The position numbers and the translations under genes are program-made. Shown piece after piece: positions 27,535 to 37,692 of a stretch of DNA of 64,000 bases (position 1 is its first letter; each line of letters begins with the position of its first letter). This stretch comes from Acidobacteriota bacterium. GTDB lineage: Bacteria > Acidobacteriota > Terriglobia > Acidiferrales > UBA7541. Where the stretch lies: NCBI GenBank assembly GCA_013289695.1, contig JABCZK010000005.1, positions 1 through 64,000 on the forward strand. The letters run 5' to 3'. Under the pieces are notes generated by a model. The model saw nothing but the letters and a program-made list of their open reading frames with translations, did not search any database and had not been told where the DNA came from.

Positions 27535-28809
27535 CTACGTTTCCGCCCGCAGCGCTTCGATCGGGTCCAGTTTCGCCGCGCGCATCGCCGGGTAAATGCC
27601 GAAAAACAGGCCGACGGCGGTGGAAAGAATCAGCGCAACGAGTATCGAAAAAAATGGCGTGGAAATCGGTATCGGCGAAAGCACGCGCACCAACTGGCTG
27701 ATAGCTACTGCGGCGACCACGCCGAGAAATCCGCCCAGTCCGGCCAGCACTGAGGATTCGACCAGGAATTGCAGGATGATGTGACGGCGGCGCGCGCCGA
27801 GCGATTTGCGCAGTCCGATTTCGCGGGTGCGCTCGGTGACGCTGGCGAGCATGATGTTCATGATTACCACGCCGCCGACCACCAGAAATACGGAAGTAAT
27901 CCAAATGGCGATGCCGAAGGCGCTGCCGGTGATGCGATTCCACAAACCCATAATGGAAGTCGGAGCGATGATGGCGAAATTATCCTCGGACAGATATGGC
28001 ACATGGCGCCGCGAGCGCAGAATCACGCGAGCCTCGTCTTGCGCGGCATCCATCCATTCCGGGCCGCGCGCCTGGACAAAAAATCCGATGGAATCCTGCG
28101 CCGTGAGCCATTCCTTGCGATAGGTGCCCAGCGGAATCATCACGAAATTGTCCTGCGGTTGGCCCAGGACATTACCTTTGGGCGTGGCTACGCCGACGAT
28201 CACGTACTGGCCCTGCCCTGCGCGAATTTCCTTTCCCACCGGATCCACGCCAGGAAATATTTTATTGGCGACGTCCGCGCCAATGACGCAAACGCCGGCA
28301 CGATGATCTTCGTCAATCTCGGTGAGCAGCCGGCCATTGGAGACGTCAATGTCGCGAATGGAAGCGAAAGTTGGAGTGGCGCCAATGATGGTTACGTCTT
28401 CGCTCAAGTCGTTGCCGTGGCGCACGTCGGCGAAGGTGTTCTGCTCTCCGGCGATGGTGTCGGCCAGCTTCATTCCGTTGCGCAGGGCTTCCAGATCTTC
28501 CATTCCGAGCGGCGGGCGTTTGCGGGCTTTGTACCACTCCTGCGCATTGGTGACGATGCCGATGCGGTCGATCACGAAAGCGTTGGCGCCGAGGTTCGCG
28601 ACCTTGTCGGCGACGTAAACGTTGAGGCCATTGAGAACCGAGATGACGGCCACCAGGGTAGTGACGGCCAGGATCACGCCCAGCAGAGTCAAGAAAGTGC
28701 GCAGTTTATGCGCGCGCAGGGTGTCCAGCGCGATCCAGATGGTTTCGCGCAGGGCGCCGAGCGTCTGTCGGGCTTCGGATAGGGATTTGGAGGACTTCAT
28801 GGCTGTCAC
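27535..28809 (-). CDS. MacB/FtsX-type ABC transporter permease (paralog)
   Basis: LGVILAVTTLVAVISVLNGLN..GGVVIMNIMLASVTERTREIGLRKSLGA. Confidence 0.92.
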   Translation of the reverse strand: MTAMKSSKSLSEARQTLGALRETIWIALDTLRAHKLRTFLTLLGVILAVTTLVAVISVLNGLNVYVADKVANLGANAFVIDRIGIVTNAQEWYKARKRPPLGMEDLEALRNGMKLADTIAGEQNTFADVRHGNDLSEDVTIIGATPTFASIRDIDVSNGRLLTEIDEDHRAGVCVIGADVANKIFPGVDPVGKEIRAGQGQYVIVGVATPKGNVLGQPQDNFVMIPLGTYRKEWLTAQDSIGFFVQARGPEWMDAAQDEARVILRSRRHVPYLSEDNFAIIAPTSIMGLWNRITGSAFGIAIWITSVFLVVGGVVIMNIMLASVTERTREIGLRKSLGARRRHIILQFLVESSVLAGLGGFLGVVAAVAISQLVRVLSPIPISTPFFSILVALILSTAVGLFFGIYPAMRAAKLDPIEALRAET

Positions 28810-28956
28810 TATATTAGACGGATATGGGCCTGGAAAAACTTCAGATTACGGATAATTATTTGGCTGCCGGGATGCGCAGGAGGGGGCAGGGGTCGCGCTC
28901 CCGGTCGACGGTTTTGGCTGCGGATTCGGGTAGAATCGAAGCTGCGGACTATCTAA

Positions 28957-30056
28957 TGGCGCAGGGCATCTCCGTCACGGGCACTTCCAACATCGCGAAA
29001 GGACTTACCGCATCGAGTCTGGCTGCGGCGCTCGCGCTGACCGGTCTGGCCGGAGCGTCCGGGCAATCGATTCCTGCTTCCCTAGCGAGCCCAACCAAGA
29101 GCGCGGCTTCGGGGGCTGAAACCCCTCATTTGAGGGCTTGGACGGCAGGGCTGAAGGCTAGGCCTTCGCCGTCATTCGCCGACGGCGCGAGTTCTGATAT
29201 GCACGGAGGCCAGCAGGAGGGCCAAATCGGGACAGCGCGACCTCCTACGGATGCCGAGATTGCGGCTCGCGCGAAAATCCTGCTGGAGCATCAATTCAGC
29301 AACGACGAGGCGCTGGAGCAGTACGAGCGGGTGGAGCATCACGTTGATCGCACAGGAGGCGCCGCGCCGCGTGTGCTCGACGATAAAACCTATCGCGTGG
29401 TACCTACCGGCTCCGGCACTATGAAACTGTTGCTGAAAGACGGCGACCGGCCGGTGGATCCGGCGGAGTACCGCAAGCAGCTCGTGGCATGGAAAGAGCT
29501 GCTGGAGCTGATGCTGAAGCCCGAAGATTCCAGGACCAAATCGGCATCCGCGAAATGGCAAAAGAGAAAAGCAGATCGCAAGGAACTGGTGTCTGCGGCG
29601 GCGGATGCTTTCCTGACGAAGTGGGCTGGGCAGGAGATGCGCAATGGCCGCGTGTGCGATATCTATGATCTCCAGCCGAATCCAAATTTTCACCCGCGGT
29701 CGCTTGTGCAGGATATTCTGACGCGCGTCACGGCGAAAATTTGGGTGGACCGCGACGCCAATCAGTTATCGCGCGGGGAAGCGCACGTGATGCGCGACAT
29801 TTCGTTTGGCGGCGGGATTCTGGGAAAACTCTATCGCGGCGGCGTGTTTTATATGGAGCAGGACGAGGTCGCTCCGGGAATCTGGGAGGCCACGCGCTAT
29901 CAATACGATTTCACAGCACGTAAATTCCTCTTCACGTTCGAACAGCACCAGTACATCGAAGCGCGCCAGTATCGCCGCATCGGGCCGCCCAAGCAGGCTC
30001 TGGCGATTGCGCAGCACGAACTGGCCAGCGGCAAAGCGCTGTACGGTGACCCGTAA
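28957..30056 (+). CDS. Hypothetical exported protein with a repeat element inserted near the N-terminus
   Basis: MAQGISVTGTSNIAKGLTASSLAAALALTGLAGASGQ; conserved-looking body from about residue 90. Confidence 0.7.
29107..29185 (+). repeat. Palindromic repeat unit inside the ORF
   Basis: cttcGGGGGCTGAAACCCCtcatttgaggg...GGCAGGGCTGAAGGCTAGGCCTTCGCC. Confidence 0.6.
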
Positions 30057-30208
30057 CTCTTCGGTCCATCCGGGATTCAGCCCAATAGAAACAGGCGCAC
30101 AATAGTCTCAGTGCGGCGCTGCACCCTTCCGTCCAATTGATATTCGGCGTCCGAGGATTTTGCTGCTTGGAGCTTGCTGGTCATTTACAGGTAATTCGAG
30201 GAGGCGTC

Positions 30209-30805
30209 ATGGATCGGCGAACGCAGCTGTTTGTCACGGCCCTGGCTATTGCAACCGCTGTTTTTGTGCCGGGCATGGCGCGTGCGCAAGGAAGTTCTGC
30301 CGGCCAAACGGCCCCGGTGGGGGACGCAGCGACACAGGCGACGCCCGCTCAGGGCAACTCGATGCCCGCCACCAGTGCGAACGCCACAACTTCGACAACT
30401 CCTACGACGACCGCGACAGCAAAAAAAGTCTGGACCAACGAAGACATGGGCGACGTCCACAACCATACGGTCCTGCCTACGTTTTCAGCATCGAGCAGCA
30501 AGCCGGGAAACGGCAAGCCCGCGGGAAACGCGAAGGGCGGCAAGGACGCGAAGCAGTATCAGGACCAAATCTTGAAACTGCAGGCCAAACTGCCGCCGCT
30601 CGACGAGCAGATCTCGGAATTGCAGGCGACGCTGAATGGCAACACCGTGAATTCCACGCGGCACTACAGCGGCGCAAAAATTGACGATTGGCACGAGGAA
30701 TTGGTGCACCTGCAAAAACAGCGCGACGACATTGCGACGAAGATCAGTGCGCTGCAGGACGAAGCTCGGCGCAACGGCGTGCCGCCGAATCAAATCCCGG
30801 ATTGA
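30209..30805 (+). CDS. Hypothetical exported protein
   Basis: GAGGAG SD; MDRRTQLFVTALAIATAVFVPGMARAQG signal peptide; coiled-coil-like C-terminal half. Confidence 0.75.
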   Translation: MDRRTQLFVTALAIATAVFVPGMARAQGSSAGQTAPVGDAATQATPAQGNSMPATSANATTSTTPTTTATAKKVWTNEDMGDVHNHTVLPTFSASSSKPGNGKPAGNAKGGKDAKQYQDQILKLQAKLPPLDEQISELQATLNGNTVNSTRHYSGAKIDDWHEELVHLQKQRDDIATKISALQDEARRNGVPPNQIPD

Positions 30806-30860
30806 CGAGGAGGCAGGCCCCGGTCTTGCGACCAGGACCCGCCCTTACAAACTGCGTGTT

Positions 30861-31724
30861 CTAGTGCGCGGCGACGGCGACTTCCTTTTCGATGGGTGCG
30901 CCGACGAGATTGCCCCACTCGGTCCAGGAGCCGTCGTAATTCTTCACGTTGCCGAAGCCCAGCAAATACTTCAGCACGAACCAGGTGTGCGAGCTGCGTT
31001 CGCCGATGCGGCAGTAGGCGATCACTTCTTCCGCGCCGTCAATTCCCTTCTTGCCGTATAGCTCCTTCAGCGCATCCGCGGATTTGAAAGTGCCGTCTTC
31101 GTTGGCGGCCTGCGCCCAGGGAATACTGGCCGCGCCCGGAATGTGGCCCGCACGCTGCGCGGTTTCGGAAAGTCCCGGAGGCGCGAGAATCTTTCCGGTG
31201 AATTCGTCCACGGAGCGAACGTCCACCAGTTGCGCGGCCTTCTTCTTATCGAGGAAGGCGTAAACATCTTCCTTGCGGGCGCGGATGGATTCGTCGGGGC
31301 CGGTGGCGTGATAGGTGGCGGCGGTTATTTTCGGCGCGTCGGTGGTGAGCGGGCGCTTTTCCTCTACCCACTTCTTGCGGCCGCCGTTGATCAGGCGCAC
31401 ATCCTTGTGGCCGTAGTACTTCACTTGCCAGAAGGCGTAGGCGGCGAACCAGTTGTTGTTGTCGCCGTAGAACAGGATGATGGTGTCGTTGGAAATTCCG
31501 GACGCGCCAAGCAGTTTTTCCAGCGCGGGCTTGTCAATCAGGTCGCGGCGAATATTGTCTTGCAGCTGCGATTGCCAGTTCCAGCCCACGGCGCCGGGAA
31601 TGTGACCCTGGTCGTAGGCGGTGGTGTCCACGTCCACCTCGACCAGGCGGACTTTCGGATCGTTCAGATGGTCGGCGGCCCACTGGGTGGTCACCAGAAC
31701 TTCAGGGTGCTTGTAGTCAGTCAT
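30861..31724 (-). CDS. CysA2-like thiosulfate sulfurtransferase (rhodanese)
   Basis: NNNWFAAYAFWQVKYYGHKDVRLINGGRKKW; YCRIGERSSHTWFVL active-site loop; VKNYDGSWTEWGNLVGAPIE; GAGGAG SD. Confidence 0.96.
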   Translation of the reverse strand: MTDYKHPEVLVTTQWAADHLNDPKVRLVEVDVDTTAYDQGHIPGAVGWNWQSQLQDNIRRDLIDKPALEKLLGASGISNDTIILFYGDNNNWFAAYAFWQVKYYGHKDVRLINGGRKKWVEEKRPLTTDAPKITAATYHATGPDESIRARKEDVYAFLDKKKAAQLVDVRSVDEFTGKILAPPGLSETAQRAGHIPGAASIPWAQAANEDGTFKSADALKELYGKKGIDGAEEVIAYCRIGERSSHTWFVLKYLLGFGNVKNYDGSWTEWGNLVGAPIEKEVAVAAH

Positions 31725-31800
31725 TGGCTGTCTCCTCGTTGTTAGTCATTCTTCGTAATTAGACGCTCGCTATCGGAACCGTTGCAAAAATCCGGGCATA

Positions 31801-31842
31801 AAACAAAAAACCCACCTGCCTTGGGTACTTCCGGCGGTGGGT
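31801..31842 (-). terminator. Intrinsic terminator between the Cys-rich leader ORF and the rhodanese CDS
   Basis: Minus strand ACCCACCGCC-GGAAGTACCCAA-GGCAGGTGGGT then TTTTTTGTTTT; about 77 nt upstream of the rhodanese start. Confidence 0.8.
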
Positions 31843-31870
31843 CGGGAATTTCTGGGCTAGTTTGCGGTAC

Positions 31871-31957
31871 TTAGCTGCCTAGCCTCCCTGCGCCAGAAGA
31901 CACGTCTGCGCAAAACATACAACAACAGCAAGCGCAGCACTGGCAGCAGATTTGCAT
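31871..31957 (-). CDS. Poly-cysteine leader peptide MQICCQCCACCCCMFCADVSSGAGRLGS
   Basis: ATG at 31957..31955, TAA at 31873..31871; 9 Cys in 28 residues; upstream of rhodanese, same strand; too short for the ORF track. Confidence 0.65.
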   Translation of the reverse strand: MQICCQCCACCCCMFCADVSSGAGRLGS

Positions 31958-31963
31958 GAACTG

Positions 31964-31992
31964 AGGTTACACCTGAACCGCGGGCATGGCAA
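31964..31992 (-). promoter_or_regulatory. Candidate promoter for the leader ORF: TTGCCA-17 nt-TAACCT
   Basis: -10 ends 6 nt before the leader ATG, implying a leaderless transcript. Confidence 0.45.
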
Positions 31993-32001
31993 TTGTTTCT
32001 G

Positions 32002-32524
32002 ATGGAGGACGGGCGGCGAAGCACTCGATATTCAGGCTGAGGTTCATGTGACGGGGCGCCTCGCTGATATCAGCCGGAACGGTTGCTACATGGCCACGAT
32101 CAGCCCGTTTGCGGTAAATGCCGCGATTGCTTTGACGGTCACGAAGGAGGGCCGAACCTTCCAAACCAAGGCGAAAGTGGTCTATTCGCTGAATGGGATG
32201 GGCATGGGCATGATGTTCACGACGACGGAGCCCGATCAAGTTCGCGTGCTGGAAGCGTGGCTGAACGAACCGAGCGGCGGAACGCCCCTCAAACCGGAAC
32301 CTGATCCGCTTCCGCTCGATGTGCCGATGCCGGCGGCGCCTGCCGAAACCGCGGCCAGCACCGATCAGGAGTTGCGGGATATCGTCCGCGAACGGATTGT
32401 TCTGCTAAACCGAAAGACCATCGTGGGCGATGCCGAAGCGATGGCCATGATGCGAAAACTCTCGAAGAAATTGGATTTGGCTCGTGCTGCGAACGATCAG
32501 ATTCCCGCGGTTTATTCCTTTTAG
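32002..32524 (+). pseudogene. PilZ-domain protein with an apparent +1 frameshift near the N-terminus
   Basis: MEDGRRSTRYS (frame of 32002) then AEVHVTGRLADISRNGCYMATISPF (frame of 32048); ORF track shows only 32048..32524. Confidence 0.6.
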
Positions 32525-32784
32525 GTGATCGATTTCAAAACGCCGTCGCTGCTTTCGAATTCGATGCGCAAGAGCCAGTCGAAATGGAATTTTTCCGCGG
32601 CGAGCCACTTCTCCAACTGTTCGCGGCCCGGGGCGTCGAATTCCACGAGCATTTTTCCTTCCTGCATGTTGACGAGCACGCGGCGCGCGGTGACTTCCTT
32701 GGCGGCATGCACGCGGCGCGCAAGTTCTTCGGCGCCCTGGCGCGTGAGGCAGGCGAGCGTGTGCTGCGAGAGGTAACGAGGCAT
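32521..32784 (-). CDS. Small conserved-looking hypothetical protein (about 87 aa)
   Basis: MPRYLSQHTLACLTRQGAEELARRVHAAKEVTARRVLVNMQEGKMLVEFDAPGREQLEKWLAAEKFHFDWLLRIE; ends convergently with the PilZ ORF. Confidence 0.65.
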   Translation of the reverse strand: MPRYLSQHTLACLTRQGAEELARRVHAAKEVTARRVLVNMQEGKMLVEFDAPGREQLEKWLAAEKFHFDWLLRIEFESSDGVLKSIT

Positions 32785-32859
32785 TCCGGCTCCTGTTCCG
32801 CTAGAATGAGCGACCACGAATAGAACGGAACCAATATAACGCGAGCGGAGAAAAATCAA

Positions 32860-33972
32860 ATGCCAGAGATGCGCACGGCACATCCCTACTACGTCTATGA
32901 AGCGATTCACGAGCAGCCTGAATTGATCGAGCGCTTGCTCGGGCAGCGCGCGGAGATTGAGCGCGCGGCGGATGCCGTGGCGCGGAAGGAGCGCATCACT
33001 TTCGTGGGCATCGGAACTTCGCTGCATGCGGCGCGTGTGGCGGAAAGCTGGATGCGCGAATTCAGCGGCGGGCGCCTCTTGGCGCACTGTGAACAATCTT
33101 TCGAGCTGGTGCATCACCCAATTGCGTTTGGCGCGGGCGACGCGGTGATCGTGATTACCCATACCGGCACCACCACCGCGTCGATCGAAGAATTGCGCAT
33201 GGCTCGCGCGGCCGGAGCGCTGACGGTCGTGATCACTGGCCAGATGAGCGGGTCAACCAGCGGACTGGCGAGCGGCGATAGGGTGCGCGGCGCCGATTTT
33301 CACATCCAGACATGCGAGCAGGAGGTGGCGTTTGCCTACACGAAAAGCTACACCACTGCGCTTGCGGTGCTTGGGCTGCTGATCGCGCGCGTGGTCGAGA
33401 GTAAGAAATTGCTTGCGGGCACGCCGCCGCTCGCGGCTTTGGAACGCGTGCCTGAATTGCTGCGTCAGGCACTGCAGCTGGAACCTGCCGCGCGCGAGCT
33501 GGCTAAACGCGTGGCGGCATTGGCGCGCATTGAGATTTTCGGCTCGGGCGCGGCGTGGGCTACGGCCAGCGAAGCGGCGTTGAAGATCAAAGAGGCTTGC
33601 TACATCGCGGCGGAGGGATTCGAAACGGAGGAAATCCTGCACGGCCCTTTTTCAGAGACGGATGCGCGCGGGTCGCTGGTCGGACTATTCACGGGCGGCG
33701 CGACGGACGAGCGCGGGCGGCAGATTCTGCGCGCGGCGGGCGAGCTGAAAATGCCGCGCGCGGCGATAACGGTGCCATCGGCGAATCACGATTTGTCCGC
33801 GGAGCAAATTCTACAGGTTCCGGAGGCGCCGGAATGGCTGGCGGCATTCGTGCACCTGATTCCGCTGCAACTGCTTACATATTTTCTGGCGCTGGAGCGC
33901 GGCGTCAGCCCCGATAGCGGCCGCATGGAGCAGCCCGCGCACGCGGCAGCAAGCAAACACTACAAATATTGA
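32860..33972 (+). CDS. SIS-domain sugar isomerase (GlmS isomerase-like)
   Basis: FVGIGTSLHAARVAESW; VITHTGTTTASIEELRMA; ALKIKEACYIAAEGFETEEILHGP. Confidence 0.9.
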   Translation: MPEMRTAHPYYVYEAIHEQPELIERLLGQRAEIERAADAVARKERITFVGIGTSLHAARVAESWMREFSGGRLLAHCEQSFELVHHPIAFGAGDAVIVITHTGTTTASIEELRMARAAGALTVVITGQMSGSTSGLASGDRVRGADFHIQTCEQEVAFAYTKSYTTALAVLGLLIARVVESKKLLAGTPPLAALERVPELLRQALQLEPAARELAKRVAALARIEIFGSGAAWATASEAALKIKEACYIAAEGFETEEILHGPFSETDARGSLVGLFTGGATDERGRQILRAAGELKMPRAAITVPSANHDLSAEQILQVPEAPEWLAAFVHLIPLQLLTYFLALERGVSPDSGRMEQPAHAAASKHYKY

Positions 33973-33990
33973 GCTCCGGTTGCGCGCGCT

Positions 33991-34020
33991 TTCGCCTGTC
34001 CTTGCGAACAGGAGTTCCTC
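33991..34020. repeat. TTCGCCTGTCCttGCGAACAGGAGTTCCT upstream element, copy 1
   Basis: Near-identical to copy 2 at 34464..34492. Confidence 0.75.
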
Positions 34021-34103
34021 TTCGACTACACCTGTGCCGCGCGCGCCTGTGCAACCCGTGCGGACGCCGTAAAATCGCATCGAGAGCTATTCAGGAGTGC
34101 TCC

Positions 34104-34454
34104 ATGAGACGCTATTTCCTTATTCTGCTCTGCATCGCGATGCTGGCGTTTGCCACCGCCGCACACGACGACGGAGGAATGGGAACGCTGGCCGGAACGG
34201 TGATCGCAACGAACGGCAAACCAGTCGTGGGCGCGCGGGTCACGTCGCAGAACGCGGGCGGCGACCATCCCCAGGTGACCACCACCAATCAGCAGGGGCG
34301 ATTTTTCTTCCCGGATCTGCTGCACGGCTATTACGACGCGCGCGCCTACCACAATGGCGCGTGGAGTGAGTGGAAGCACAACATTGGAGTGAGCACCGGC
34401 AAGCAGACCGAACTCGTGCTGCGCTTGTCCGTGAAGTCTTCATCGCCGAAATAA
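34104..34454 (+). CDS. Small secreted carboxypeptidase-regulatory-like (Ig-fold) protein
   Basis: MRRYFLILLCIAMLAFATAAHDDGGMGTLAGTVIATNGKPVVGARVT. Confidence 0.85.
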   Translation: MRRYFLILLCIAMLAFATAAHDDGGMGTLAGTVIATNGKPVVGARVTSQNAGGDHPQVTTTNQQGRFFFPDLLHGYYDARAYHNGAWSEWKHNIGVSTGKQTELVLRLSVKSSSPK

Positions 34455-34463
34455 TCCCAGGCG

Positions 34464-34492
34464 TTCGCCTGTCCGCGCGAACAGGAGTTCCT
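34464..34492. repeat. TTCGCCTGTCCgcGCGAACAGGAGTTCCT upstream element, copy 2
   Basis: See copy 1. Confidence 0.75.
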
Positions 34493-34576
34493 AGTCGAGA
34501 ACATTGAGCCGTGTGACGGTGACGCCGCACGGAAGGCCCGCGTAAGATTGCATTCAGAAACATCGTGGGGTGCACT

Positions 34577-34972
34577 ATGAAACGAAATGTGCTGGTCCTG
34601 CCCGTACTTGCATCGCTGGCATTGCTGGCGTCCTTGACATTTGGCGCGGTGACGGCTCGGGCGCAATTCGCCAGGGGCTTGGGCACGTTGGCTGGAACGG
34701 TGCTGGACGCGCACGGCAAGCCGGTGGCCGAAGCGAGCGTGACGATTCAGACCTCCGATGGACTGAAACCCCACGCCACGCACACCGATTCCAGCGGGCA
34801 TTACGAATTCGCGCGCTATGATGCGGGACAATACGATCTGCGGGCGTACTCGAAAGGCCAATTTTCCGATTGGAGCAAGCACATCGTCATCCGCCCGAAG
34901 AAAACCACGGAAGTGACGCTGCGCATGCCGCCGGAAAGCACCGAGAAGGTGGACGTAACCAGCAATCCGTAA
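34577..34972 (+). CDS. Small secreted carboxypeptidase-regulatory-like protein (paralog)
   Basis: MKRNVLVLPVLASLALLASLTFG..GTLAGTVLDAHGKPVAEASVTIQ. Confidence 0.85.
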   Translation: MKRNVLVLPVLASLALLASLTFGAVTARAQFARGLGTLAGTVLDAHGKPVAEASVTIQTSDGLKPHATHTDSSGHYEFARYDAGQYDLRAYSKGQFSDWSKHIVIRPKKTTEVTLRMPPESTEKVDVTSNP

Positions 34973-35043
34973 GACGCGGCCGGTGATTTGCGGCCGCTTG
35001 GCTGTGGGATTCGGCCGCGCATTTCCAAATCCTCGCAACTGCT

Positions 35044-37692
35044 TCACTCGTGCCGCAGCGCCACCATGGGATCCACGCGCATGGCGCGGCGCGCGGGGAT
35101 GTAGCACGCAAGGATGGCCACACCAGTCAAGATGACCGATACAGCGAGGAACGTTGCCGGGTCATTCGCACCAACTCCAAAAAGCAGGTGCGAGAAGCTT
35201 GACAGCAGCCGCGCGAGGATGAGCGCGCTCGCGGCCCCAATCGCGACGCCAGCCATAGCCAGCCGAAGACCTTGTCCGATCACCACGCGAAAAACCTCGC
35301 GCCTCTCCGCACCCAGCGCCATGCGAATGCCAATCTCGTGCACACGCTGGACCACCGAATAAGAAATCACGCCGTAGATTCCGATGGATGCCAGCAGCAA
35401 CGCCAGGCCCGCAAACACGCCCAACAGGATCATGGGAAATCGCTGCGACGACATCGATTCCGAGACAATTTGGTTTATCGTGTGAACGTTGTAGATCGGT
35501 TGGTCGCTGCCTGCTCCGTAGACCGCTCTTCTAATCTCGGGCAGCACAGTCGAGGCCGCAAGTGGGGTGCGCACCACGACCCAGGTCCAGGTATCGATGG
35601 TCGTCATCCATCGATTCGTGATCTGATAAATAGAAACATAGGACTGCGCGTCCGTGAATGGGCTGGAGAATCCCAGCTCCCAGTGTTGCACGTGGCCCAC
35701 AACTCCGATAATCCGGTAACCGCCGACCTGCGCAAAAGAGATGGTGTGGCCTATCGGATCCGTGTCCGGAAAATAAGTTCGCGCCAGTTCGGCATCAATC
35801 ACGGCAACCAACGGCGCGTTGATGGTGTCCTGCTCGCTGATGAACCTTCCCCGTATTAGCGGTATTCCCATAACTCGCTGGAAATCGGGGCCAGTGATAA
35901 AACCCAATGTTCTTGGCGCTGCTGCGACAGAGGCGGGCCTGCGGGAGTCAACCCAGAAGGGGAGCGAGTTGACCTGATGGCTCATCGGCACCAGTGTGCT
36001 TAGATCCGCCGATTGAACTCCAGGAATCTGGCGAATGCGCTCAATCAATTGTTGGAAGGCGGTTCGCACGCCCACGCCGTTCCCGGTCGCCGAAGGGGAA
36101 AGACCTACTTGAAAGGTGATGAGGTTGTGAGCGTCAAAACCGAGATTAGCCCGCCACAATTGCTGGATGGTGCGGAACAGCAATCCGGCGCCGGCCAACA
36201 AGACCACCGTCAGCGCCATTTGCATGACCACGAGGACGCTTTGCGCGCGTTGATGCCCTGTTGTGGATCCGCGCGCTCCTTCCTTAAGCGAGGTTTGAAG
36301 ATCAACTCTCGAACTATTGAGCGCGGGCGCAAGACCAAACAGAATCCCCACAACGATCGAAATGCCGAGCGCGAAAAGCAGTACAGAAACATTCACGCGC
36401 ACGTTCTCGCTGCGCGGCAGACTTGAGGCCACGGCCGCCAGCGCCGCGTTGAGCCCCCATTTTGCCGCCGCCAGCCCCAACCCTCCGCCCAAGACAGAGA
36501 GAAGCACGCTTTCGGTCACAAGCTGCCGCACAATGCGCGCACGGCCTGCGCCAAGAGCCGAGCGAATCGAGAATTCGCGCGTTCGAGCCGCCGCGCGGAC
36601 AAGCAAAAGATTGGCAACGTTCGCGCACGCGATCAGCAATACCACAGCGACCGCTCCCAGTAACAACAAGAGCGTTCCGCGCACATCGCCGACAAGTTGT
36701 TCCTTAACAGGCGTAAGCTTCGCTCCTAGCCCCTCCTCCGTGTCTGGATGAAGACGATCGATAGTTTCTTGGACCGTGTTCATCTCCGCTTCTGCCTGGC
36801 CAATGCTCACTCCAGCCTTTAATCGGGCAACGCACACGACGTTGTGAACTGTGCGGTCGTTCTGTTCCACGAGCTTCCTCTGTCCAATGGGTGTGTAAAT
36901 GTCCGCGTCATCGGTGCCAAAACGAAAGCCCGGCGGAAGAACGCCGACGATGGTAGCCTCGACGCCATCCAGGACGATGGACTTGCCCACCGCCGCCGCG
37001 CTGCGTCCGAACCGATCTAGCCACAGGCTGTCGCTGATGATGACCGCGGGCGTTCCGCTGTTGCGGTCTTGCTCGGTCGAGAATTCTCGCCCCTGTGCTA
37101 GCTCGACCCCGAGCATGGCGAAGAAGTTCGCGGAGATTTCCCTGCCCTGGAGGTGCTCAGGAGTCCCGGGACTCGACAAATCGAAGCCTCGCCACGCGTA
37201 CGCCGCCATTTTCTCGAACGAGCGAGCGTTGCGCTGCCAATCCACAAAATCGGCGTAGGACAGATCCGTGATGCTCTGCAAATTGTGATTATTCAGCCAG
37301 ACCATCACCAAGCGATCCGGTTCGCGGTAAGGCAGTGGCGCCAACACGACGCCTTGCACCACGCTGAAGATCGCAGTGTTCGCGCCGATGCCGAGGGCGA
37401 GAGTGAGGATGGCGATAGTGGTGAAGCCGGGCGTTTTGCGGAGAATGCGCAGAGCGTAGCGGACGTCGGCGTAGAGCGATTCCATCCAGAAACCGTGGCG
37501 TTGTTCGCGGCAGTCGTCTTTCACGCCCTCGAGCGCGCCGAGCTGCAGCACGGCTTGGCGGCGCGCTTCTTCAGGCGGCAGGCCGGCGGCAATGTTCGCC
37601 ACAGTTTGCCGTTCGATGTGGAAACGCAGCTCGTCATTCATATCCTGCTCCCACTTTTTGTCGCGCGAAAACCAGCGCCGCAGGTCGTTCAT
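35044..37692 (-). CDS. ADOP-type ABC transporter permease (acidobacterial duplicated orphan permease)
   Basis: N-terminal MNDLRRWFSRDKKWEQDMNDELRFHIERQT; two MacB/FtsX modules. Confidence 0.93.
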   Translation of the reverse strand: MNDLRRWFSRDKKWEQDMNDELRFHIERQTVANIAAGLPPEEARRQAVLQLGALEGVKDDCREQRHGFWMESLYADVRYALRILRKTPGFTTIAILTLALGIGANTAIFSVVQGVVLAPLPYREPDRLVMVWLNNHNLQSITDLSYADFVDWQRNARSFEKMAAYAWRGFDLSSPGTPEHLQGREISANFFAMLGVELAQGREFSTEQDRNSGTPAVIISDSLWLDRFGRSAAAVGKSIVLDGVEATIVGVLPPGFRFGTDDADIYTPIGQRKLVEQNDRTVHNVVCVARLKAGVSIGQAEAEMNTVQETIDRLHPDTEEGLGAKLTPVKEQLVGDVRGTLLLLLGAVAVVLLIACANVANLLLVRAAARTREFSIRSALGAGRARIVRQLVTESVLLSVLGGGLGLAAAKWGLNAALAAVASSLPRSENVRVNVSVLLFALGISIVVGILFGLAPALNSSRVDLQTSLKEGARGSTTGHQRAQSVLVVMQMALTVVLLAGAGLLFRTIQQLWRANLGFDAHNLITFQVGLSPSATGNGVGVRTAFQQLIERIRQIPGVQSADLSTLVPMSHQVNSLPFWVDSRRPASVAAAPRTLGFITGPDFQRVMGIPLIRGRFISEQDTINAPLVAVIDAELARTYFPDTDPIGHTISFAQVGGYRIIGVVGHVQHWELGFSSPFTDAQSYVSIYQITNRWMTTIDTWTWVVVRTPLAASTVLPEIRRAVYGAGSDQPIYNVHTINQIVSESMSSQRFPMILLGVFAGLALLLASIGIYGVISYSVVQRVHEIGIRMALGAERREVFRVVIGQGLRLAMAGVAIGAASALILARLLSSFSHLLFGVGANDPATFLAVSVILTGVAILACYIPARRAMRVDPMVALRHE

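Follow-up and report, generated by a model that had tools for sequence, protein, structure and literature searches.

On the minus strand of the window (the whole stretch of 64,000 nt analysed here), a gene encoding a CysA2-type thiosulfate sulfurtransferase of the tandem rhodanese type (30861..31724) lies downstream of a short cysteine-rich ORF and an intrinsic terminator, and is the gene that this arrangement would control. An earlier note on this DNA had named a CysA2-like rhodanese starting at 31724, and the identification holds: the product carries two Pfam rhodanese domains and, among solved structures, comes nearest in sequence to the Thermus rhodanese 1uar (358 bits) and to thiosulfate sulfurtransferase chains of the M. 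tuberculosis type (3hwi/3aax, 346 bits). A Shine-Dalgarno-like GAGGAG (31732..31737, minus strand) stands apart from the terminator, and since the end of the gene adjoins an ORF on the other strand, the rhodanese is probably alone in its transcript. Upstream, an ATG at 31957 opens the leader ORF MQICCQCCACCCCMFCADVSSGAGRLGS* on the same strand, which closes with a TAA ending at 31871 (31871..31957) and has Cys at 9 of its 28 codons, just as the same note had read it. The leader peptide belongs to no family in NCBIfam or Pfam. Two ORFs in other frames (55 aa from 32024 and 37 aa from 31992) were also considered, and conservation and promoter spacing favoured the frame of the ATG at 31957.

The promoter elements sit directly before this start codon on the minus strand. 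A -35 hexamer TTGCCA (31987..31992) is followed, after a spacer of 17 nt, by a -10 hexamer TAACCT (31964..31969), which ends 6 nt 5' of the ATG, so that the transcript is probably leaderless, with its predicted start at the ATG or a few nt before it. Downstream of the ORF, a hairpin formed by segments 3 and 4 and a T tract (GGTGGGTTTTTT; 31805..31843, minus strand) make up the intrinsic terminator, which the earlier note had placed at 31801..31842 and which is borne out by folding of 31843..31809 plus the T tract at -19.7 kcal/mol (z = -2.8). The terminator has a competitor: CUUCUGGCG near the end of the Cys ORF (segment 2, 31891..31899) is complementary to CGCCGGAAG in the 5' arm of the terminator (segment 3, 31828..31836), and the resulting antiterminator is extended by an inner helix between GGCUAG (31879..31884) and CUAGCC (31855..31860), all on the minus strand. 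When the RNA was compared with the Rfam covariance models, positions 28000-36000 of the window gave no match at E≤1, and in seven further loci a tRNA was the only match apart from a sub-threshold one that overlapped it; T-box, SAM riboswitch and other curated RNA families were thus not matched in these regions.

Conservation of the leader among relatives

The CysA2-type rhodanese is encoded in 61 of the 90 genomes of the same family, and the stretches upstream of these genes were fetched and aligned. In genera g1, g2, g10 and g11 most of the rhodanese genes carry the same leader arrangement, in which the promoter-to-ATG spacing, the Cys codons in frame and the terminator are conserved and the antiterminator covaries. 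In the other genera of the family and in part of g2 this arrangement is missing and other DNA lies upstream; the rhodaneses of several of these genera have no terminator pattern upstream. A covariance model (R1) built from 37 rhodanese leaders matched 74 of the 90 family genomes, with up to seven copies in one genome, 146 of 401 genomes of the class and, at a stricter cut-off, 19 of 401 genomes of a sample of the phylum. The rhodanese loci of other phyla were without the element (best E 0.017, which is not credible).

Where the leader is missing, the neighbourhood of the rhodanese gene appears to differ as well. The window contains a further minus-strand ORF (32521-33162), the product of which includes PRYLSQHTLACLTRQGAEEL and reaches no Pfam family above cut-off. 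In genera without the leader a homologue of this ORF appears to stand immediately before the rhodanese, and gain or loss of the attenuator therefore goes with a change of operon context.

The position of the start codon relative to the promoter is a general feature of the leaders. Among 112 leaders, 75% have an ATG 4-11 nt past the best -35/-10 pair, compared with 14% of shuffles; the start codon lies mostly 6-9 nt past the -10 hexamer, the -35 element keeps the form TTG(C/A).., and the spacer measured 17 nt in 84 of the 101 cases counted. Within the ORF frame, codons -2 to -12 (numbered back from the antiterminator) of 99 leaders comprised TGT 338 times and TGC 99 times, as opposed to five TGG and a single TGA, and Cys occupied position -6 in 85%, -8 in 80%, -5 in 70% and -9 in 68% of them; part of this enrichment is built in for the distant copies, which were gathered with a model made from Cys-codon leaders, whereas the rhodanese leaders were gathered by their downstream gene only. 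On these in-frame counts the poly-Cys ORF is far beyond chance. The variation among the Cys codons is mainly between TGT and TGC, and this in-frame codon conservation led us to reject a mere TGY repeat as the source of the run. The number and spacing of the cysteines differ between leaders, and the peptides are variable beyond the run, which is itself kept (for example MSIFPQKNAQLCICCMCCMRVSSGAGRLTF and MKLRVQTCTHCCCLCCTEVCSGAGG).

The two RNA structures are conserved in parallel. Across 101 leaders, 97.5% of the alignment cells in the terminator are paired, four pairs are changed on both sides and the sequence is nearly invariant. For the outer antiterminator helix, 91.4% of cells are paired in the 37 rhodanese leaders, where three pairs have changed on both sides, and 90.4% in the 101 leaders, where four pairs have done so; the alignment of the 101 leaders was fitted to the terminator only and so does not lean towards the antiterminator. 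Compensatory changes include one pair that is UA in 39 and CG in 21 leaders, and in genus g11 TTCTGGCG/CGCCAGAA is replaced by (A)TTTGGCGG/CCGCCAAA(T). The antiterminator covariation score of the 101 leaders was reached by none of 500 shuffles, which ignore the relatedness of the sequences; controls in which the 3' arms were slid along the alignment account for relatedness, and they scored far lower, with no more than 53% of the cells in the whole structure paired. The inner helix is less well conserved (67.5-72% paired). The order of Cys-run ORF, terminator and sulfur gene, which the earlier note had taken for an attenuator layout, is thus present and conserved, as are the Cys codons varying between TGT and TGC and the terminator that it had expected in relatives; the promoter, from which transcription should begin at the ATG or close to it, the antiterminator with its compensatory changes and the copies before other sulfur genes go beyond it.

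Genes downstream of the other copies

We read 80 stretches at other loci, a sample chosen mostly among the highest scores and not at random, and classified the genes downstream. CysD (24) and the sulfite/nitrite reductase family (Sir/NirA-like, 18) were the most frequent, followed by TauE (4), encapsulin 2A or its small rhodanese (4), siroheme synthase (CysG, 3) and sulfonate-binding proteins (3), with single cases of CysH, Sat, a sulfate-binding protein, CobA, DsrE2 and CysA2. The remainder comprised Oar-like receptors (5), porin-like proteins (3), a few others and aspartokinases, which were found downstream of five copies, at least four of them with leaders that lack a Cys run. cysS was not among the classified downstream genes. 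The operon contexts, in which the second genes were assigned by eye from translations, include cysD ahead of a gene for a CysN-like GTPase, sat ahead of a CysH-like gene, the sulfate-binding protein ahead of permeases, and the small rhodanese with encapsulin 2A and one more gene behind it. The genome of the window itself holds two convincing copies, the one before the rhodanese and one before genes for a sulfite reductase, a siroheme synthase and a methyltransferase. Most sampled copies therefore precede operons for sulfur assimilation, sulfur uptake, siroheme or rhodanese and encapsulin 2A.

Several individual loci deserve mention. At four of them (L222, L223, L226 and L229) the Cys leader lies 5' of an operon that encodes a small rhodanese, the shell protein of a family 2A encapsulin and a third product, and in a distant Acidobacteriota family two Cys leaders (L262 and L267; ..RSCCCCCMCSSAVSGGGGPRF) precede a cysteine synthase-like gene. 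Seven Cys leaders (L186, L187, L191, L204, L195, L205 and L208) stand before genes for porin-like outer-membrane proteins and Oar/TonB-like receptors, through which sulfur compounds may be taken up, and one (L210, in G056) stands before a MurE-like Mur ligase gene that has no obvious link to cysteine. That some copies precede genes without an obvious sulfur role, namely those for porins, Oar-like receptors and the MurE-like ligase, is a point against reading the element as an attenuator.

Leaders rich in other amino acids were also found. In other genomes of the family, Thr-rich leaders (L246, L248 and L252; for example MSTTSTTTTSTILASGAWRNS) lie upstream of aspartokinase genes, with a terminator and antiterminator core that was recognised by the Cys model, and these are apparently threonine attenuators on the same scaffold. 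Four further leaders (L268, L273, L272 and L271), each with a terminator, comprise a Met-rich one before an O-acetylhomoserine sulfhydrylase-like (MetY-like) gene, one with YYWWW before a TrpE-like gene and one rich in Leu, Val and Ile.

Proposed mechanism and its alternatives

Considering the ORF with its conserved codons, the promoter spacing, the covarying antiterminator, the terminator and the target genes, all of which are read from the sequence and its comparison with relatives, we propose with a probability of about 90% that the element brings about transcription attenuation by the ribosome in response to cysteine, and that it serves a sulfur regulon. The start of transcription at the ATG, the stalling of the ribosome, the cysteine signal and the sign of regulation are suggested by this design and by analogy with established attenuators. 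RNA polymerase would start at or next to the ATG, a ribosome would load on the leaderless 5' end and it would translate the Cys run close behind the polymerase. With charged tRNA-Cys plentiful, the ribosome would cover segment 2 (which encodes ..SSG..) and reach the stop codon, whereupon the 3:4 terminator would form and transcription would end before the rhodanese gene. With charged tRNA-Cys scarce, the ribosome would stall in the Cys run and leave segment 2 free to pair with segment 3 as it emerges, so that the terminator would be pre-empted and the gene transcribed. The other copies would act alike on operons for sulfate assimilation, siroheme, sulfur uptake and sulfur storage, together amounting to a cis-controlled cysteine regulon.

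Modelled folding of the window leader fits these two outcomes. With the ribosome at the stop codon the terminator had a probability of 0.97, and with the ribosome stalled in the Cys run the antiterminator reached 0.99 before the 3' arm of the terminator exists; in the whole RNA the two structures were near balance (0.54 vs 0.45). Over 95 leaders, the median probability of the antiterminator before the 3' arm appears was 0.87. Once the full hairpin is present, the terminator wins at equilibrium in most leaders even with a stalled ribosome (median antiterminator probability 0.00), and antitermination would hence have to be kinetic, decided by timing during transcription. The mutually exclusive antiterminator is conserved and covarying as a structure, and the model predicts that a stalled ribosome would expose it. 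A protecting 1:2 hairpin as in trp was also considered; it reached 0.83 in the fold of the window leader but overall did not exceed codon-shuffled leaders.

The enterobacterial trp, his, thr, ilv and leu attenuators have a leader ORF with a run of regulatory codons and a mutually exclusive antiterminator and intrinsic terminator, and their targets belong to the pathway of the regulatory amino acid. The element described here shares the codon run, the competition between antiterminator and terminator and the target in the pathway of the amino acid. It differs from them in its predicted leaderless start in place of Shine-Dalgarno initiation, in Cys as the regulatory amino acid, in a segment 2 that falls within the ORF, before its stop codon, in having no supported 1:2 hairpin, and in the use of one scaffold at up to seven loci per genome.

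Two predicted or described cysteine systems come closer. The uORFC-8-2 motif, predicted before cysS in Rhodobacterales, has Cys codons in a short uORF followed by an intrinsic terminator, and ribosome-mediated attenuation by charged tRNA-Cys has been proposed for it (PMC8632094); given this motif, we do not regard the pairing of a Cys attenuator with an intrinsic terminator as without precedent. Our element shares this layout, but whereas uORFC-8-2 usually has two tandem Cys codons at positions 14-15 and is found only upstream of cysS and only in Rhodobacterales (PMC8632094), the leaders here typically have 3-9 Cys, are predicted to be leaderless and precede a broad set of sulfur operons, with no cysS in the sample. 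In mycobacteria, a Cys uORF lies upstream of cysA2 (PMC4633059), leaderless poly-Cys short ORFs act by translational attenuation according to passages of PMC13236596 and PMC9031893 that cite Canestrari et al. 2020, and predicted actinobacterial cys leaders, including those of Mycobacterium, were reported to be without obvious terminator hairpins (PMC1262725). The precedent that the earlier note had named from mycobacteria therefore stands for the poly-Cys leader before cysA2, with an output that is described as translational. Common to both phyla are a Cys-run ORF that is leaderless (here by prediction) before sulfur and cysteine genes including the CysA2-type rhodanese, and its occurrence at more than one locus per genome; unlike the mycobacterial leaders, those of Acidobacteriota have a strong intrinsic terminator and a covarying antiterminator. 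The idea is the same and the output step is different, which supports the earlier note in expecting a new instance or variant in Acidobacteriota, although what was found is a multi-operon system in the class and not a single instance. Judged by sequence, the element would combine a leaderless poly-Cys input of the mycobacterial type with a terminator output of the uORFC-8-2 type, and have wider targets than both.

The shared leaderless poly-Cys design and target family, and the translational output ascribed to the mycobacterial system, raise the question of whether the leader here might likewise control access of ribosomes to the rhodanese start, with the hairpin being secondary. We regard this as very unlikely, as a near-invariant GC hairpin and T tract lie ~80-115 nt before the gene, the DNA between them and the gene is poorly conserved and the alternative pairing is directed at the hairpin, not at the Shine-Dalgarno site. 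Even less probable, in our view, is that the nascent Cys-rich peptide itself senses redox state, thiols or a metal and arrests the ribosome, so that the signal would not be the supply of cysteine. Long Cys runs such as MCRCTCCCCCCCC.. in L217 could bind a metal or be oxidised, and sulfur storage and rhodaneses are among the targets; against this, the peptide is variable outside the Cys codons, the cysteines vary in number and spacing, RNA pairing accounts for the C-terminal SSG motif, and the Thr-rich leaders before aspartokinase genes with the same terminator core, like the Met- and Trp-rich ones before MetY- and TrpE-like genes, fit sensing of amino-acid supply. Least probable of all is that the ORF stands alone as a small gene, ending at its own terminator and encoding a Cys-rich peptide with a function, and that the rhodanese has a promoter of its own. 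The good promoter of the ORF and the terminator that immediately follows it speak for this view; against it, copies precede sulfur genes of many unrelated families, the peptide is not conserved outside the Cys run, and the last codons of the ORF are complementary to the terminator and covary with it.

Beyond the attenuator itself, we are evenly divided over a wider proposal, namely that much of the sulfur assimilation, uptake and storage of Acidobacteriota is organised as a cysteine regulon that dispenses with a transcription factor, built on one leaderless attenuator scaffold the specificity of which is set by swapping the codon run (Cys; Thr before aspartokinase; possibly Met and Trp). If true, a ribosome that initiates right at the 5' end could trail RNA polymerase from codon one onwards, a case in which leaderless translation meets transcription attenuation. 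Acidobacteriota are among the most abundant soil bacteria, and the control of their cysteine sensing and sulfur assimilation is undescribed in the literature that we searched; that search, which covered few subscription papers, returned no description of the Cys element in this phylum. The proposal offers a concrete, testable regulon with named targets and a covariance model for annotation, and it would link the family 2A encapsulins, and with them sulfur storage, to control by the cysteine level. The occurrence of a leaderless poly-Cys ORF before a CysA2-type rhodanese in mycobacteria as well poses the question of convergence or transfer.

One rhodanese leader (L114, in G034) has an in-frame TGA directly before the Cys run when read from the predicted ATG (MQANPQKTTRTS*CCLCCMCASSGAGRLGI); this too counts against an attenuator, and the TGA could be a sequencing error, a sign of decay or a codon that is read as an amino acid.
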